This document shows positions 2,278 to 31,855 of a DNA stretch of 31,855 nt, one piece after another. This stretch comes from a virus: positions 1 through 31,855 of IMG/VR virus record IMGVR_UViG_3300050117_000025. One strand, given 5' to 3'. Under the pieces are notes generated by a model that saw nothing but the letters and a program-made list of their open reading frames with translations, did no database searches and was not told the DNA's origin. Made by a program: the position numbers and the translations under genes. Each line of letters opens with the position of its first letter. Positions within the stretch are counted from its first letter, which is position 1.

Positions 2278-2940
2278 TTAGAACCAGGTGTAAGTGAGGT
2301 GGTCCAGACTCACCGCGAACCCTGAACCGGTCGGCAGCAGGCTTTGCTGGAGCTGCATCGCCGCGATCACGGACCATCCATCCGCAATCACGTCCGCCGT
2401 CTGCAGCGCGGCGGGCACCACGTAGACAGTTCCGTTGATGGTCACGTACTGGTAGGCGCCGCCGGCGGCTGCCAGACTGTAGCCGATGGTGTGGTGATAC
2501 CTCGTCCCCGGCGTGAAGGTTCCAGTCTTGGCAAACGGCACCCAGATGCCTTTCTGGATCACGTAGAGCTGGCCGGCGACGTTCTGAATCGAGAAGTTGC
2601 GCCGGAGATTCTTCGCCGGAGTCGCGCAGGCCGTCACCAGCATCGTGTCCGTCTCGAAAGCGTTCGCGTTTGCCGGGGAGAAGAAGGCGGCGTCAAAGTA
2701 GGCGTCGAAGTCGAGCACCAGCTTTGAGGCGCTCGGATTGAGGACCGGGCGATTCCAGTAGGTCATCGCGGTCGGGAACGCGCCCGGAGCCGGCGCTGAC
2801 TGAATCGGTGAATAGAAAGCGTTGTTGGGGAGCAGGAAGGGGGCATAGGGAACCGTGGGCGGTTTGGGGCCAATGCTGCCGTCCCCGCCGCCGACGTGCG
2901 TCCCAAACGGAGAAGTCTGGAAATCGGAGTCTGTGAACAT
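2278..2940 (-). CDS. putative lectin-like (jelly-roll) phage protein
   Basis: 220 residues. Its start overlaps the stop of the acyl carrier protein gene (TAATG). The first 60 residues are rich in Pro, Gly and Phe and look unstructured. From about residue 70 the pattern of alternating strands (SKLVLDFDAYF, DTMLVTACAT, FSIQNVAGQLYVIQKGIW, TRYHHTIGYSL, YQYVTINGTVYVV and a final FAVSLDHLTYTWF) resembles LamG/concanavalin-like sandwiches, in which W.PF.K.G.F.PGTRYHHTIGY would be the ligand-side loop. A carbohydrate- or surface-binding role is plausible. I cannot name a family, and no catalytic motif stands out. Confidence 0.7.
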   Translation of the reverse strand: MFTDSDFQTSPFGTHVGGGDGSIGPKPPTVPYAPFLLPNNAFYSPIQSAPAPGAFPTAMTYWNRPVLNPSASKLVLDFDAYFDAAFFSPANANAFETDTMLVTACATPAKNLRRNFSIQNVAGQLYVIQKGIWVPFAKTGTFTPGTRYHHTIGYSLAAAGGAYQYVTINGTVYVVPAALQTADVIADGWSVIAAMQLQQSLLPTGSGFAVSLDHLTYTWF

Positions 2941-3185
2941 TATTGAGTCTTCGCTTTCTCCGCCGCGGCGGCGGTGTTAATGACGTCCTGGACGGTGCGC
3001 CAGCACTCGGCCGTGGTGTCTGGGATTTCGAGGCCCGTCTCCTCCAGCTCGATCTGGATTTCGACGATATCGAGCGAGTCGGCCTCGAGATCCTCGCGCA
3101 GGTCGGCGCTCGAGGTGATGGCGGCGGAGTCGGCGGGAAGCAGGACTCTTTCGAGGATTTCCCTTACTTTGAGTTCGATCGTCAT
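2940..3185 (-). CDS. acyl carrier protein
   Basis: 81 residues, the usual length for a free acyl carrier protein. The core LREDLEADSLDIVEIQIELE contains the phosphopantetheine attachment site: Ser37 in D-S-L-D at the start of helix II, followed by the acidic recognition helix and IPD. The final helix CWRTVQDVI matches the usual TV.D(V/I) motif. In bacteria a holo-ACP synthase loads this Ser, and the arm then carries acyl chains for fatty acid, lipid A or polyketide synthesis. No partner enzyme is present in the window. The gene is translationally coupled on both sides (ATGA with the coiled-coil gene, TAATG with the next). It could mimic host ACP or act as a binding partner. Confidence 0.88.
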   Translation of the reverse strand: MTIELKVREILERVLLPADSAAITSSADLREDLEADSLDIVEIQIELEETGLEIPDTTAECWRTVQDVINTAAAAEKAKTQ

Positions 3186-4563: not shown

Positions 4564-6510
4564 CTAGTTAGCATTGTTGTTTCCGCAGAAGTAACTGCCG
4601 CTGAAGGTGCTCGTCGGAGTTGTAACAAGATTCACGGTCAGACCGGCAGCGGAGAATGTACTGACCCACGGCACTCCGACCGAAATCACGCTCGCGCTCC
4701 ACGAGATCGTACAGCTGTCCGGAGCGATCGTCATTGGCGTCGCGAAGGACACAGCCGTGCTGCTCGCGGGGTTGGTGATCGTCCACGTCCCGGCGCGGAT
4801 CGGAACCTGCGCCGGCGCGCTCTGGGGGTACCCATAGCAGTTCCAGTTCGTGCCGTTGCTCACCGCGATCGCGTGGGTTGATCCGCCGGCGGCGCACACC
4901 TGGCCCTGCGCCGAGGCAGTCGTTGCGTCGGTGACGACGTACAATCCCCCCGCATTCGCGGACGCCGATGGCAGGCTGCCGACCGGTAACTGCCCCGGGA
5001 GAATCATACCCTCCACCCCGGAATTCGCTAAATCGAGCCATGCGGCGGGGGGAAAGCCTGATCCGCGTGGGCCTCCGATTCCCACCAGATTTGTGGTGAT
5101 GCAGGAAGGGCCCGCGCCGCAGAGAGTTGTAGTGATGGGCTGGGAAGTAATTCCAGCCAGCATGTTCGCCGGGGTGATTGGCTCCCCGGTCATGATCCTC
5201 GATCCGCTCGCCCATCCCAGGGTTCCCATGACAGGAGTTGGGCTCTGGGGGGCGAAACCGAGTGAGAGATCGGAATCAATGACGTTGCCGCTGTAGTTGA
5301 ATAAACCTGCCTCACCGGCGTCATCGGCTTTGACGATGAGGTTCGAAATTTCACCAACGGACCCCTTCACGCCACCAATCAGGTAGCCATCCTGGGCAGT
5401 GGTGAGGATCCCGGTAATGATTCCACCGGAGATCTGAGCGTTCGCGTTGAGCCACAGCGCCGAAACCGTGTTGCTGGGATAAGTGTTGGGGCCGTGATAT
5501 TCGGTGCGGATCCCGAGGAGTGAAACTGCGGTTTCAAGCACCCCGGAGAAAACGACGACCCCGGAGGATCCAGACGCAAACGTTCCATCTGAAGTGAAGT
5601 AGTTCTGAGCGACCGCGTTGTAGTCTGAGGCGCCGGTCAGCTGCGCGGCGGGGTAGCCTCCGTACGTGGTCCACTGGTTATTACCCCCGAAGCTGAAATG
5701 CGTCATGCCGCCTGTGCCGTTGCAGCTGCCGTCGCTGTTGTCCAGCGTGTAGTAGCTCGACGTGACGACTCCGTGCGCTGTCCCTGTGTAATCTCCGGCG
5801 ATGATGCTGGTGTTGCCCGAGTAAACCTGGACGTCGTTGTTCCAGTCCAGGTCAGTCCCGCAATACATGACGCCGAAAGCGCCGCCGGGAGCCAGGGACG
5901 ACTGCATGTCGACGAAGATGTGATTGAGGAAGTTAGTCGGGGCCCCGCCCCCCGCGCCTCCTTCGGCGCTCACAAATCCGATGGTGGAGTGGTCCGTGGT
6001 TACGTACTCATCGCTGACCGCGATCTCTTCGAGGCCATTGAGGTAGGCGGAGCCGTCGTCGACGGCGATTCCCGCAGAGGTGAGATCCGGAACGAGGGTG
6101 GTGTCCCATTGGCTGTGTCCGCGCAGGATCACGCTGCTGACAAAGCTGGGGCAGAGGGCATTGTGGTTTGCTTCGGTCCCGCACATCCACAGCCCGGTTT
6201 TGAAGATATAGTTTCCAGGCGGCACGTCGATGTTGGTGTGGTGCGTGTTGGAATAGTAGATGCAGCTCTGAATGGCGGTGTAGTCGTCCGTCGAGTTATC
6301 CCCTTTGGCCCCGCAGTGGCTGCCGTAGGAATCGGTAAACACAGCTTTCAAGCTGAGGGCGCCCCCGGGAATGTACCCGTAGATGCCGGTGTTGGCATCC
6401 GGGCCCACCGTCCCACCCTCTTTCGTGAGGTAGGCCGGCGTCGCGGCGAGAAGCCCCAGGCAGAGGATTCCCAGCCAAAAATTCAGGAGCTTTTTCGTAT
6501 CGCTTCGCAT
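4564..6510 (-). CDS. tailspike-like protein with pectate-lyase-type beta-helix start and N-terminal hydrophobic segment
   Basis: 648 residues from the ATG at 6510, which has GAGGGG and a 7-nt spacer; the frame extends to 6546 but overlaps the previous gene. Residues 9-25 (LNFWLGILCLGLLAATP) form a signal-like segment. From about 50 the sequence KAVFTDSYGSHCGAKGDNSTDDYTAIQSCI is the entry of the pectate-lyase/tailspike right-handed beta-helix family, followed by IDVPPGNYIF and many Gly/Asn/Val-rich turns. The C-terminal part has LPSASANAGGLYVVTDAT and TNWNCYG, seen in many fibres. Such proteins bind or degrade surface polysaccharide. No catalytic residues can be assigned by eye. The signal-like N-terminus is unusual for a tailspike. 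Confidence 0.8.
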   Translation of the reverse strand: MRSDTKKLLNFWLGILCLGLLAATPAYLTKEGGTVGPDANTGIYGYIPGGALSLKAVFTDSYGSHCGAKGDNSTDDYTAIQSCIYYSNTHHTNIDVPPGNYIFKTGLWMCGTEANHNALCPSFVSSVILRGHSQWDTTLVPDLTSAGIAVDDGSAYLNGLEEIAVSDEYVTTDHSTIGFVSAEGGAGGGAPTNFLNHIFVDMQSSLAPGGAFGVMYCGTDLDWNNDVQVYSGNTSIIAGDYTGTAHGVVTSSYYTLDNSDGSCNGTGGMTHFSFGGNNQWTTYGGYPAAQLTGASDYNAVAQNYFTSDGTFASGSSGVVVFSGVLETAVSLLGIRTEYHGPNTYPSNTVSALWLNANAQISGGIITGILTTAQDGYLIGGVKGSVGEISNLIVKADDAGEAGLFNYSGNVIDSDLSLGFAPQSPTPVMGTLGWASGSRIMTGEPITPANMLAGITSQPITTTLCGAGPSCITTNLVGIGGPRGSGFPPAAWLDLANSGVEGMILPGQLPVGSLPSASANAGGLYVVTDATTASAQGQVCAAGGSTHAIAVSNGTNWNCYGYPQSAPAQVPIRAGTWTITNPASSTAVSFATPMTIAPDSCTISWSASVISVGVPWVSTFSAAGLTVNLVTTPTSTFSGSYFCGNNNAN

Positions 6511-6521
6511 TTCCGTTCCCC

Positions 6522-7439
6522 TCAGTTGGTGGACTTCACTCGCCACACGCTGCCGTCGCTGCGCAGCGTCACAGCGCCGCCGTTGGTGCCGATCACGTAA
6601 CTGCCCCCGTTGTTGACGCTGCCCGAGAGCGTGATGTTGTTGGTCGCTGCGCTGTATGAGATGTCGATAAAGCTCAGCTCATAGCTGATGCCGGCCGATG
6701 CCGCACTTGGCAATGTGATCGCGCCGGCCGCGCTGAAGTTGCAGAAAAGCGTGTTGTCGGCCGTCACCCCCGAGACAACGATCGCGCTGGGCGCGGTGAT
6801 CGTTCGCGAGCCGGACCCCAGCTGCTGGAAAAGAAGGACTGCAACGGGAGCATTGACCGGCGCAACCGCGAAGGTGACGGTCCAGGTGTTGGTTCCCGTG
6901 TACGCGATCGAGTAGTCGCCGTTCTGCGCGCTCTGATAAATGCCGCCGGCGTACACAGCTACCAGAGGCGTGGGCGATGGTGGCGCGGTGAAGGTGAAAG
7001 CCGCGTTGGCGCCGTCGACAGTGCCGGCGGCGAGCTGCGCGGTCGGAGCCCCGGAGAAAAATCCGGTGATGCCGGTGATGGACTGGCCCGGTTGAATGAT
7101 CGGCGTCAGACTGCTGAGGTCGACGGTGCCGCTGCCGGTGAGCTGGTAAAGTCCGGCCTGGACGATGTTCCGCTGGTCATCGAGGAGCGCAATCTCGTAG
7201 AACGTCCCGCCCGGACTGATGACATCGTTTCCCCAGAGCAGTGTCGAAATGCTGCCGTTGGTGGAATCGAGATAAAGAGGACCTACCTTGTCGAGATTGC
7301 AGACCCCTGGAACGGTGGGAAGAAGGTAGCCGAAGCCGCACAGCGTGATCCGCATCTGGCTCGGATTCGCCGCGGAACCCACGAGTCCGCCGGTCACGCT
7401 TTCGAGTGTCGCTGTGAGTGTGATCGCCGGAGTCGTCAT
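6522..7439 (-). CDS. putative tail fibre protein
   Basis: 305 residues, beginning MTTPAITLTATLESVTGGLVGS. The start overlaps the previous stop (ATGA). The N-terminal part (VGPLYLDSTNGSISTLLWGNDVISPGGTFYEIALLDD and LYQLTGSGTVDLSSL) is a pattern I associate with short fibre proteins that sit on the virion. The middle contains a PPSPTPLVAVYAGGIYQS...YSI segment, like repeat modules of fibres. The C-terminal third (NGGSYVIGTNGGAVTLRSDGSVWRV) is a beta-strand run typical of trimeric tips. It precedes the tailspike-like gene, as expected for an anchor or fibre. No signal peptide is present, unlike the next two genes. Confidence 0.72.
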   Translation of the reverse strand: MTTPAITLTATLESVTGGLVGSAANPSQMRITLCGFGYLLPTVPGVCNLDKVGPLYLDSTNGSISTLLWGNDVISPGGTFYEIALLDDQRNIVQAGLYQLTGSGTVDLSSLTPIIQPGQSITGITGFFSGAPTAQLAAGTVDGANAAFTFTAPPSPTPLVAVYAGGIYQSAQNGDYSIAYTGTNTWTVTFAVAPVNAPVAVLLFQQLGSGSRTITAPSAIVVSGVTADNTLFCNFSAAGAITLPSAASAGISYELSFIDISYSAATNNITLSGSVNNGGSYVIGTNGGAVTLRSDGSVWRVKSTN

Positions 7440-27565: not shown

Positions 27566-29736
27566 TCCACGCCTCCCTGCAGCATGTGTACGTCAGACGT
27601 GCGTTCGTTGAGCGCCTGCGCGCGCTCCAGCGGGACCGAACCGGATCCGCGTTCAATAGCCTGCTCCGCGAGCGACTTCGTGATGTCGCCCTGCGATTTC
27701 GCCTGGACGGCTGCGAGGCGATTTTTGCCCTTGAGCTGCTCCAGCGCAATTTGGAGAGCGCCCGGCTGGCCCGCACCGCTGCTGCGATACATCGCGCGCT
27801 CGCGCGGTGTCATCGGTCGGAAGATGTTGTCGTTGCCGGCGAGCTCGCTCAGGCGAATGAAAAGCCCCTCGATCGCTTCGAAGTCGACGGTGCGGCCCGT
27901 TTGGTGCAACCCGTCAAGCAACTGTGGCTGTTGCAGAATCTGGAGAAGGAACGGGATGAGCTGCAGGATGGCCTGTTTGGCGATGAGCTTCTGGCCGGCC
28001 AGCACGCTGAAGCTGAACTCAACGTTGAGCCAGTGCTCCATGTCGATGTTCTTAACGATGGCGTCGGCGTACTTCTTTTTGAGGATCTCCCGAATTTCGG
28101 GGATCGGCATTTTGGTGCGCACCATCTCGATGATGAATTCGATAAAGCGCGTGACCACGATCTCAAGGTGATACACGGGCCGCGCCACGTTGTCCTCAGC
28201 TTTGGAACTGACTGCCTGCGCGCCCGTGGCTGTGCGCGCCGCGCTCGATCCGGGCTTGCTGATGTTGCCCTGCATGAATGCGGCGTCGGCGCCCACGAGC
28301 TGCTCGCCGCCCTGCTGCGCGAGCTCGTAAATGCGCCACGCCTCGGCCGGAATGAGGGGGCGATCGAGGTAGAACGCAGCTTTCCGCATGTCGCCATCGG
28401 GCGGCGGATCGAGCGCCCAAAAGGTTCCGAGGCCGCTCACCACGTTTTGAGTGGGAGCGTTCTCGCCGCGCGGAATCACCAGCGGCGTGTTGAACCACAT
28501 CCCGATCATCTTCAGCACTTCATTGAGGACTCCGGCCTCCATGCGCTGGTCGCCCGAGTTGAGCCGGCCGATGCCGATACCGAAGCCGCAGTTTTCGACG
28601 TTCCACCAGTTGCCCGCGTAGCCGAGCGCGTGATCGCCCAGCTCATGGTCGTCGTTGCGAATGCAGTACACGCGATCGTTGAAACACAGGACGGTGCGGG
28701 TGCGCTCGCTGTCGTTCATTTCTAGCAGCATCAAAGGCCTGTCGAACGGGTTGGCGCTCATTTGCCGTTCTTCGCCCTCAGCGTGCAGCACTGTGCTGTT
28801 TTGCGAGCTCATCTGATCCGCGGTCTGCGACGGCGGCTGCGCGTCACCCTGCGGGTTCTGAATGAAGAACTCCTTCAGCGTCGCATCGTCGGGAATGTTC
28901 TTGTAGCAGGGCAGCTCGCGGAGCTGCTGCAGGTCCTCAAAATTGACGTAATCGACGTGGATGACCCAGCCGGCGGAGAGGTCCGGGCGATTCGGTGTCC
29001 TCCACTTCGGGTCGTAGAGTGTCGTGCCCAGCCGGCGATACTCGAAGATGGGATAGCTGAGCGTGACCTTGTCCCGCTTTACCTCGAAATCGTCGCTCTC
29101 TTCCGTGTTGACCACCTGGTCGCCACCCACAGGCAGCGGAACGCTTTGCGGTGGCGCCTTCCGCTTGCGCCTGCGTTTGATTTTCTCGACGACTTCCCAG
29201 CCGGGGCGCACCAGGCCGGTGCCCTGCGTCGCCTGTGACTCGCCCATGAGTCCAAGGTTGTATTCGAAATCGGCGCGCTTCATCAGCGTGTGAATGAGGT
29301 GGGTCCAGGCCTCGAGCTCCAGCTCCGTGGTGTTGCCTTCCTGCTGCAGGGCGAAGGGGACCTGATTTCCGAACATGCTGCGGTGAGTCTGATTGCTCAT
29401 CGTGTTGCTGTTTTTCGCGATGAGGAATCGGGAGATTCGAACGGGCCGGCCGTCGCGAACTCCCACCCAATTGTCGTAGTTCGGGCTTTGGTAGAGGACG
29501 TCCGTGGCCTGCCACTCCATCAGCCAGGAGTTGCGTTCCAGCCAGGATTTTGCGAGCTGAAAGTTTTCCCAAACAATTTTCGCGGCTGCGCGATCGCTGA
29601 AGACGGGCGGCTGGGCTCCGCCGGAAGAGGGTTGGACTTCGCGGCTTTGGACCGGTCCGCCGATATCGAACCCCTGCGGTAATTCACCGGAGGGGACTGC
29701 GGGCGTTTCTGCTGTCTCTTCGTCCATCTGTTTCAC
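27562..29736 (-). CDS. portal protein
   Basis: 724 residues, coupled to the terminase stop (start GTG at 29736 or ATG at 29727). N-terminal 60 residues are disordered. LAKSWLERNSWLMEWQATDVLYQSP begins the portal wing. QTHRSMFGNQVPF and RADFEYNLGLMGESQATQGTGLVRPGWE follow. The long C-terminal helices (VVTRFIEFIIEMVRTKMPIPEIREILKKKYADAIVKNIDMEHWLNVEFSF...) are the portal stem and crown, with a Gln/Ala-rich end. Order after terminase and before capsid, the length of about 700 and these patterns fit podovirus portals. It forms the dodecameric ring through which DNA enters and leaves. Confidence 0.85.
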   Translation of the reverse strand: MKQMDEETAETPAVPSGELPQGFDIGGPVQSREVQPSSGGAQPPVFSDRAAAKIVWENFQLAKSWLERNSWLMEWQATDVLYQSPNYDNWVGVRDGRPVRISRFLIAKNSNTMSNQTHRSMFGNQVPFALQQEGNTTELELEAWTHLIHTLMKRADFEYNLGLMGESQATQGTGLVRPGWEVVEKIKRRRKRKAPPQSVPLPVGGDQVVNTEESDDFEVKRDKVTLSYPIFEYRRLGTTLYDPKWRTPNRPDLSAGWVIHVDYVNFEDLQQLRELPCYKNIPDDATLKEFFIQNPQGDAQPPSQTADQMSSQNSTVLHAEGEERQMSANPFDRPLMLLEMNDSERTRTVLCFNDRVYCIRNDDHELGDHALGYAGNWWNVENCGFGIGIGRLNSGDQRMEAGVLNEVLKMIGMWFNTPLVIPRGENAPTQNVVSGLGTFWALDPPPDGDMRKAAFYLDRPLIPAEAWRIYELAQQGGEQLVGADAAFMQGNISKPGSSAARTATGAQAVSSKAEDNVARPVYHLEIVVTRFIEFIIEMVRTKMPIPEIREILKKKYADAIVKNIDMEHWLNVEFSFSVLAGQKLIAKQAILQLIPFLLQILQQPQLLDGLHQTGRTVDFEAIEGLFIRLSELAGNDNIFRPMTPRERAMYRSSGAGQPGALQIALEQLKGKNRLAAVQAKSQGDITKSLAEQAIERGSGSVPLERAQALNERTSDVHMLQGGVE

Positions 29737-31855
29737 CCGTCCAGGCCACCGGGCAGCGGTGGCAACATTGCGTATTCGGCTGCACGTTCGAAGGCCACCA
29801 CGGTGGCCTGGGCCTTCTGTCGCGCCTCCTCGTTCACCACCGGCATCCCGCGCTGCTGGAAGACGTGGTTAAATTGTGCCGACTCGCGCCGGCGGAGTTG
29901 CGCCTGAATTTCTTCCTCGCTGAGCTGCGCGCGCATGAGGCTCAATGGGACTCTTTGAAGGAGGCGGCTAATGCAGTCTACAATGCCGTTCTCGCTCACC
30001 AGGCCAAAGTGGATGAACTGCTTCCGCATCTCCGCCGCGGCCGTCACGCTGTGCGACAGGATGAGCCGGCCGGCCGTCATCATGGGCTCGGCCTGGGCGA
30101 TGCGGCCGTTGCGAACGCTGTCGTCCTCCTCGTAGGGAAGTCGCCCGATGCGGATGCTGCGATTTCTTTTCAGAGCCTCGTTGCGAATCAGCACGGGCAT
30201 GTCATCGGTTCCCGGCAGGTCTTCCATGAGGAGCATCTCGCAGTCCCACAGCCGGTAGGTTTTGATGACCTTCTCGCACAGGCCTGAAGGGACGTACACG
30301 CCGCGCCACGCATCGAGGATGTAAACCTTGCCGCCGGCGACGCGCCCCACCGCGCACTCCGCGTGGGTCGCCATGAATTTCTTGCTCTGGCAGGGCAGGC
30401 GCAGCACCATGATGGTTTCGCCGACCAGCGGGAGGTGATCTTCATCGGCGAGCGAGGCGCTGTATTTCCTCTCATCGAATACCGGCACACTGCCGCCCTG
30501 CGGGTCGTTCATTAATTGGCAATTGTGGACCGCGAAACCATCGCAAACAAAATTGCCGCTCGTGGTCTCAATATCGAAGACTTTCTGCTCTCCAATCGGC
30601 TCCATGGAAACCACGCGGGGATAATTCCTCTCGGCACCGCGCCGGCCGCAGGTTTCGCCAACCTGCTTCGCAGCCCAGAGCGAGGCTGTGAATCTCTCCC
30701 TTTTGGCCATCTGCGCCTGCTGCAGCAGGCGAATGCGGAGGGACCTGCCACCGTGAAGCAGGAAACTCTCTGTCTTGTTGGTTATGCCCTGGGAGAAAGA
30801 GATCCCCAACGCACGGAGCGTATTGGCGATCGACCCAAAAACCTCGGGGTTACTGAGTGCCTGTTGGCTCACGGTCAACAAAGAGCCCGTCAGGCTACCT
30901 TCACCATCCAGGATGCCGCCAAGCCAGTCTAGTTGCCGCTGCTCAACGGCGGTCGGCCATGCGGATGGCCTATAGACCGACACCAAGCGAGTCCCGACTT
31001 TGGCCGGCAGATATCGCAAATCGCCATTTTGGGGACGCAGGAAACGATGATTAAAGGTTGGATAGGAGATCCTTCCGGAATCGGTGATCAGCTTTGCAAC
31101 TGTTGCTGTTCGCGATGCGATTGCCTCAACGCGCTCTCTGGTGAGCCGGGTTTGATGGCCGGCAATTTTCCTAAATCCGACAACCTCATCGCCCACCTTG
31201 ACCTCTTCGATCCGCTTCTCTGTCCAGTCCGCCATGAGCACGCGACTGCCAGCGGCAAAGCACATGAAGCTCTCGTATTCGTCGAAGAACTTCTCGCGCA
31301 GTTCCGCGTAGCGGAGGCTTTCGATCATGGGGAAGTGGAGGATTAGATCCTCCTCGCGCGGGAATTCTCCGGGCATCAGGCGCGCGCCGTCTTTCACTGT
31401 CAGCGCCGCGCGGATGAGGACCTTCCACCGCTTGGGATCCATGGTCGAGAGCACATCGCCATAGAGATCGAAGGGGTGGTAGCGCGTGCCTCGAATGTTG
31501 ATGAAGCCGCCCGCCTGCATTGTGTTTTTGTTGGTGCGGTAAGTGGAGATAACACCCTTGCGGACGTCCTCGCTCGCCTTGATGCCGCTGTTAAGCGTCT
31601 CCACCATGTCATCGGGATTCAGCACCCAGGGGTGCCAGCCGGACTGCGGCGACTTCGGCGAGGTGTAATCGACGGTGCTGTCGAGGTCGAGGCTTTCAAC
31701 GCGATGGTTTGGAGTATTCCATTTTCCAAATGGTTCCTTGCCGTCAAAGACGAGCTCCGGGTAAAGCTGCCGGTAGAGTCGGCCGCGCTTGCCGGCGCCC
31801 GCCCAGCAAAAATAGTGGAGAGCCTTCCCAATTTCTGCCGCGAGCGGCTGTGTCG
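29733..31855 (-). CDS. terL: terminase large subunit, N-terminus cut by window edge, with intein
   Basis: The frame stays open to base 31855: upstream of the GTG at 31625 it reads AAEIGKALHYFCWAGAGKRGR...YPELVFDGKEPFGKWNTPNHR, so the true start and the Walker motifs lie outside. Visible are about 706 residues. FDEYESFM is followed by an intein (30522-31262) and then CQLMNDPQGG, the family's F..Q..NDP-type motif. The nuclease domain follows, with VYILDAWRG, LLMEDLPG and VDCISRLLQRV. The expected first Asp motif of the nuclease is not obvious. Terminase packages DNA into heads. The gene overlaps the portal start by four bases. Confidence 0.85.
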   Translation of the reverse strand, partial: TQPLAAEIGKALHYFCWAGAGKRGRLYRQLYPELVFDGKEPFGKWNTPNHRVESLDLDSTVDYTSPKSPQSGWHPWVLNPDDMVETLNSGIKASEDVRKGVISTYRTNKNTMQAGGFINIRGTRYHPFDLYGDVLSTMDPKRWKVLIRAALTVKDGARLMPGEFPREEDLILHFPMIESLRYAELREKFFDEYESFMCFAAGSRVLMADWTEKRIEEVKVGDEVVGFRKIAGHQTRLTRERVEAIASRTATVAKLITDSGRISYPTFNHRFLRPQNGDLRYLPAKVGTRLVSVYRPSAWPTAVEQRQLDWLGGILDGEGSLTGSLLTVSQQALSNPEVFGSIANTLRALGISFSQGITNKTESFLLHGGRSLRIRLLQQAQMAKRERFTASLWAAKQVGETCGRRGAERNYPRVVSMEPIGEQKVFDIETTSGNFVCDGFAVHNCQLMNDPQGGSVPVFDERKYSASLADEDHLPLVGETIMVLRLPCQSKKFMATHAECAVGRVAGGKVYILDAWRGVYVPSGLCEKVIKTYRLWDCEMLLMEDLPGTDDMPVLIRNEALKRNRSIRIGRLPYEEDDSVRNGRIAQAEPMMTAGRLILSHSVTAAAEMRKQFIHFGLVSENGIVDCISRLLQRVPLSLMRAQLSEEEIQAQLRRRESAQFNHVFQQRGMPVVNEEARQKAQATVVAFERAAEYAMLPPLPGGLDG
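30522..31262 (-). mobile_element. intein with LAGLIDADG-type motif inside terminase
   Basis: 247 residues. It begins with Cys in CFAAGSRVLMADWTEKRIEE, matching the N-terminal splice block (C..G..V). PTFNHRFL matches block B (T..H). VFDIETTSGNFVCDGFAVHN is the C-terminal block, with His-Asn at the end followed by Cys in the host protein. All residues needed for protein splicing are therefore visible. The middle has one LAGLIDADG-like motif, WLGGILDGEGSLTG, followed by LRALGISF, so a homing endonuclease domain is present or decaying. The size is between a mini-intein and a full intein. Joining the flanks gives ESFM-CQLMNDP. Confidence 0.9.

Follow-up and report, generated by a model that had tools for sequence, protein, structure and literature searches.

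The DNA analyzed here, referred to as the window, is a 31,855-bp metagenomic contig from the IMG/VR virus collection (IMGVR_UViG_3300050117_000025, positions 1 to 31,855). Near its end, an insert interrupts the gene for the phage terminase large subunit (TerL). We conclude that this insert is very probably a mobile class 1 intein that splices TerL and carries a homing endonuclease. An earlier note, made from the sequence letters, had placed an intein in the terminase at 30522 to 31262, and these coordinates proved exact. The insert (31262 to 30522, minus strand; residues 198 to 444 of the TerL frame) is free of stop codons, is in frame with TerL, and amounts to 247 amino acids, or the 741 bp by which the gene differs from a near-identical allele. 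The TerL frame itself comprises 706 codons (29733 to 31853, minus strand), and its N terminus is missing past the contig end at 31853.

An insert at a conserved terminase motif

The host gene is a T7-type TerL. The sequence following the insert (C-extein) matches phrog_38, terminase large subunit (3e-9), as does the uninterrupted TerL of a second virus contig, L021 (IMGVR_UViG_3300050118_000028; 4.6e-13). A structural model of the L021 TerL is only moderately confident (pLDDT 80.4, pTM 0.57); it matches solved terminases, with the phage PhiV-1 terminase as the best Foldseek match (E = 2.5e-20). In this model, the first residue after the insert, Cys+1, is residue 302, where the last ATPase helix ends, ahead of the first strand of the nuclease domain, as read from the secondary structure. 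With the L021 protein as the query, this TerL group matched nothing in Pfam and gave a single weak match among 50,697 deposited phages; thus, it marks a group of uncultured phages.

Compared base by base, L021 is a natural empty site, and this is the strongest proof of the intein. Its TerL is ~97% identical to that of the window (96% over the exteins) and runs uninterrupted through ESFM/CQLMNDP. At the DNA level, L021 reads TTCATG followed by TGCCAATTAATGAACGACCC; the window is identical there except for the 741 bp in between, and the flanks are 96% identical upstream and 92% identical downstream (4.3 kb). This identity is even around the junction and gives no readable signal of co-conversion. 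Since TGC opens both the intein and the C-extein, the insertion point in the DNA can be placed with a precision of 3 bp at best. The 40.7-kb L021 record has no copy of the intein at any other position. That the insert directly precedes the conserved Q..NDP motif (CQLMNDP), as the earlier note had it, is borne out by L021 and by the conservation of the junction in relatives, where the residues FM and CQ..NDPQGG are among the most conserved in TerL. Poor alignment of insertion-free homologues at this point had been named as a sign against an intein; 27 intein-free relatives align cleanly across FM/CQLMNDP. Some intein-free TerLs (L028, L027, and L033) have Ser (AGC) or Gly (GGG) instead of Cys+1, and Gly at this position could prevent the site from being used for splicing; the intein carrier L011 is closely related to L028.

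The residues expected at the splice sites are all present as first described. The block A nucleophile, Cys1, is invariant across 14 family members; the block B TxxH motif is T69-F-N-H72; and the intein ends in His246-Asn247, followed by Cys+1 of CQLMNDP. The canonical splice residues are kept in 7 near relatives, and the N-terminal half of the HINT splicing domain (blocks A and B) is conserved in homologues A1/A3. A class 3 intein was considered and rejected, since that class requires the lack of a nucleophile at position 1. The Pfam models Intein_splicing and Hom_end_hint match the insert at 2.5e-6 each, both below their curated cut-offs. The NCBIfam intein-bearing family NF038136 aligns with it end to end (E = 2.8e-10), with no match over the cut-off in the search with this model, and a phmmer search against solved structures gave weak matches to the N-terminal part only. 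Because Intein_splicing matches, NF038136 aligns from end to end, four inteins at the same site in other phages are 53 to 56% identical to it, and a near-identical TerL lacks exactly 741 bp, the insert is by these comparisons a genuine intein in TerL and no chance pattern.

We propose that TerL would be translated as a single precursor, in which Cys1 of the HINT domain would attack the Met-Cys bond and the chain would be transferred to Cys+1. Asn247 would then cyclize with the help of His246, and ligation of the exteins as ...ESFM-CQLMNDP... would make TerL whole again where its ATPase domain ends. Since the HINT fold is shared by bacterial intein-like (BIL) and hedgehog proteins, which are present among the structural matches, one might suppose that the insert is retained as an extra TerL domain or is a BIL- or hedgehog-type HINT that only cleaves. 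We regard this as very unlikely, given the full class 1 set including His-Asn and Cys+1, the exact and scarless empty allele, and the fact that Cys+1 is itself part of a conserved TerL motif; moreover, this stretch ranks among the most conserved in TerL, and a 247-residue domain kept there permanently would probably not be tolerated.

A predicted single-unit endonuclease

An AlphaFold2 model of the window intein, built with ten homologues as input, was obtained at high confidence (pLDDT 89.4, pTM 0.87). Its top Foldseek matches were the homing-endonuclease inteins TliVMA, PhoVMA, PI-SceI, and PI-PfuI, indicating a HINT fold. Secondary structure assigned by DSSP (H105-121, E122-125, E128-132, H139-151, E156-161, E164-169, H172-182, and H188-197) delineates one complete alpha-beta-beta-alpha-beta-beta-alpha LAGLIDADG unit. 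A motif scan likewise found the single LAGLIDADG-like motif that had been noticed at the outset (DWLGGILDGEGS, intein residues 112 to 123), and neither the scan nor the model revealed a second. One motif per member is also the rule in 12 inteins at the TerL site and in those of ET08 gp248, the LRRHood terminase, and the Rahel and Neoevie portals.

The earlier note had suggested a shrinking or a dimeric endonuclease. The dimeric part is favored, whereas shrinkage is not: the fold is complete, conservation of the endonuclease part matches that of the splicing domain (mean identity of 47.4% versus 46.5% and 49.7% for the splicing parts), and a single motif is found in all members examined. These features argue that the endonuclease is a small, complete single unit rather than a decaying one. 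Nonetheless, most described LAGLIDADG inteins have two motifs, and a lone motif could represent one half of a two-motif enzyme. The intein might then splice while its endonuclease is a decaying remnant that has lost its second LAGLIDADG half, with homing ceased in this lineage. The failure of the window's own copy to reach the Pfam LAGLIDADG models fits such decay (LAGLIDADG_3, PF14528, matches 3/14 family members, at best at 5e-4). We consider decay improbable, since the DGE of the motif is invariant in 14 family members, the single-motif form is common to relatives in other genes, and the TerL tree shows the carriers dispersed in the manner of ongoing homing.

With one unit per chain, the small, complete endonuclease is therefore probably a homodimer. 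A single unit would pair with a second copy, and the dimer would cut intein-free TerL genes at a pseudo-palindromic site of ~20 to 24 bp spanning the insertion point; repair of the cut gene would copy the intein in (homing). LAGLIDADG homodimers recognize target sites of marked palindromic symmetry (PMC3943268). We scored 1,318 centers in the TerL gene for palindromy, using the 22-bp site geometry of homodimeric LAGLIDADG targets. The most palindromic is located 4 bp downstream from the junction (mean of 5.3/9 pairs; TTC...TGCC/AGCA...GAA); it ranks first at half-lengths of 10 to 12 bp and 2nd to 13th with other settings (8 to 9 bp). This palindrome is suggestive support for a homodimeric enzyme. 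Several points weigh on the other side. The chance that the gene's best center falls within 10 bp of the junction is ~1.6%, which is only suggestive; the palindrome is partly fixed by conserved amino acids; and in distant family members, which sit in other host genes, it does not reappear at a constant offset, nor was a palindrome common to those genes found. In addition, splicing, dimerization, cutting, and present nuclease activity are all read from sequences and models.

Distribution among phages

Homologous inteins occupy this TerL site in at least 10 further phages, some of whose TerLs are only ~19 to 24% identical. Those with the insertion at the same codon are L002, L003, L005, L010, L011, L051, L014, L015/L016, and L017, plus the deposited phage MW202554. 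The window intein is 47% identical to that of L014 and 42% identical to that of L015, versus 24% and 19%, respectively, for TerL. Among the distant carriers, TerLs are 15 to 29% identical to each other and inteins 38 to 49%; the most distant carrier, MW202554, has an intein 27 to 32% identical to the others. L018 (121 to 588) has a partial copy at the same site in which only intein residues 93 to 247 match in frame, and a break or frameshift may affect the N-terminal part of this intein.

In a tree built from 34 near TerLs, the presence of the intein requires 7 changes for 7 carriers; 6 of these changes are forced by well-supported branches, and intein-free relatives lie between any carrier and the rest. 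The carriers are scattered and, across distant TerLs, their inteins are more alike than the TerLs themselves; therefore, the patchy distribution, as expected for a mobile element, points to recurrent gain and loss through homing. For the closest pair, L015/L016, the dN/dS of the intein is 0.05; the endonuclease part is identical between the two, so the ratio is uninformative there. A genome scan with the intein alignment found no bacterial relative; it yielded one short Streptomyces stretch (L020) with no intein around it.

The spread of carriers also bears on whether the intein of another contig was joined to this TerL during assembly. The contig is metagenomic and the insert lies near its end, as such a chimera would have it. 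We nevertheless find this barely credible: neither the reading frame nor the splice residues show any flaw, homologous inteins occupy the identical codon in ten further carriers from different samples, among them a complete phage genome in the public databases, and no donor closer than 56% identity to the window intein was found.

Two further observations concern relatives of the intein. In the distant members L014, L015, L017, L060, L059, and L062, Lys, Ala, Arg, or Ser replaces the penultimate His, a loss likewise noted among mycobacteriophage inteins by Kelley et al. (PMC5050341). Separately, L006 and L007 (4001 to 4087 and downstream) encode a virus radical SAM protein with a mini-intein in its cysteine cluster (RCSLN/CFAMG...VVHN/CTYCYQ), in which no endonuclease was seen; the first 29 residues of this mini-intein are 62% identical to the window intein.

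Features of the window and comparison with known systems

Coordinates of the TerL intein, its parts, and the flanking exteins in the window
Feature	Position	Strand	Evidence
Class 1 intein with one LAGLIDADG homing-endonuclease unit, 247 aa (very probable)	30522..31262	-	Exact 741-bp insertion relative to L021; same-site homologues; AlphaFold2; Foldseek
N-terminal half of HINT splicing domain, intein residues 1-98, blocks A (Cys1) and B (TFNH 69-72)	30969..31262	-	Sequence; model strands
Homing endonuclease unit, intein residues 105-197, LAGLIDADG helix then beta-beta-alpha-beta-beta-alpha	30672..30950	-	DSSP of model
C-terminal half of splicing domain, intein residues 212-247, blocks F and G, end GFAVHN	30522..30629	-	Sequence; Pfam Intein_splicing reaches residue 247
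N-extein, TerL ATPase part, incomplete at contig end, ends ...FFDEYESFM	31263..31853	-	96% identity to L021; L021 fold
C-extein, remainder of TerL including stop codon, begins CQLMNDPQGG	29733..30521	-	phrog_38, 3e-9; 96% identity to L021

Elsewhere in the window, the minus strand encodes a phage acyl carrier protein (2940 to 3185; PP-binding, 3.5e-7; phrog_5934, 4e-10), a pectate-lyase-like protein that is probably a tailspike (4564 to 6546; PF12708, 4e-7), and a cell wall hydrolase/endolysin (1810 to 2265; PF07486, 4.3e-9).

This intein extends the known TerL insertion sites by one, from an uncultured phage group, and the window and L021 form a natural pair with and without the intein for direct tests of splicing and homing. 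If the endonuclease is dimeric, this would be a very compact LAGLIDADG homing intein, one that informs the origin of two-motif enzymes by duplication and that intein and meganuclease work might take as a small starting point. More broadly, and tentatively, at somewhat short of an even chance, it may belong to a widespread, undescribed clade of phage inteins, in which a single-LAGLIDADG homodimer acting on a pseudo-palindromic site at the TerL Q..NDP motif allows one enzyme to invade very different terminases. The open-access literature yielded no account of single-motif dimeric intein endonucleases, most subscription journals lying outside the search; single-motif relatives are already in GenBank.

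Kelley et al. (2016; PMC5050341) described seven intein sites in mycobacteriophage terminases (TerL1-a to -e, TerL6-f, and Pham3880-g), showing splicing for five and cutting of the intein-free allele for two, and both endonucleases that they tested have two motifs. Crass-like phages also carry TerL inteins (PMC7886860). The Q..NDP site is not among the seven as they are described there. Pham3880-g (LRRHood gp245), a distant homologue with one LAGLIDADG motif, was considered as the same allele and rejected, as its site (SSPY/C...HN/SKIGKFY) lies in a different TerL motif.

The same insertion codon is used in MW202554 (Podoviridae sp. ctLwi270; QFA/C...RN/CQQMNNP), where the gene bears no annotation beyond "terminase large subunit." Its 235-residue intein also has one LAGLIDADG motif (WLGGIIDGEA); it is ~31% identical to that of the window (TerL, ~22%), and its penultimate residue is Arg, whereas that of the window is His. 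Full-length homologues with a single motif occur in other host genes, namely, mycobacteriophage ET08 gp248 and the portal genes of Rahel and of the Gordonia phage Neoevie (~23 to 30% identity by tblastn; penultimate Ser, Lys, or His). NF038136, the sole NCBIfam model to cover the whole window intein, represents an actinobacterial intein of the Rv2578c family, whose host is a radical SAM enzyme, and the window intein scores far below its cut-off. Homodimeric endonucleases of the I-CreI type likewise have one LAGLIDADG unit per chain; here, however, the unit is nested in an intein, and dimerization and cleavage are predicted. TerL inteins were thus already known; this one stands apart by its Q..NDP site, absent from the seven of that survey, and by an endonuclease half the usual size.
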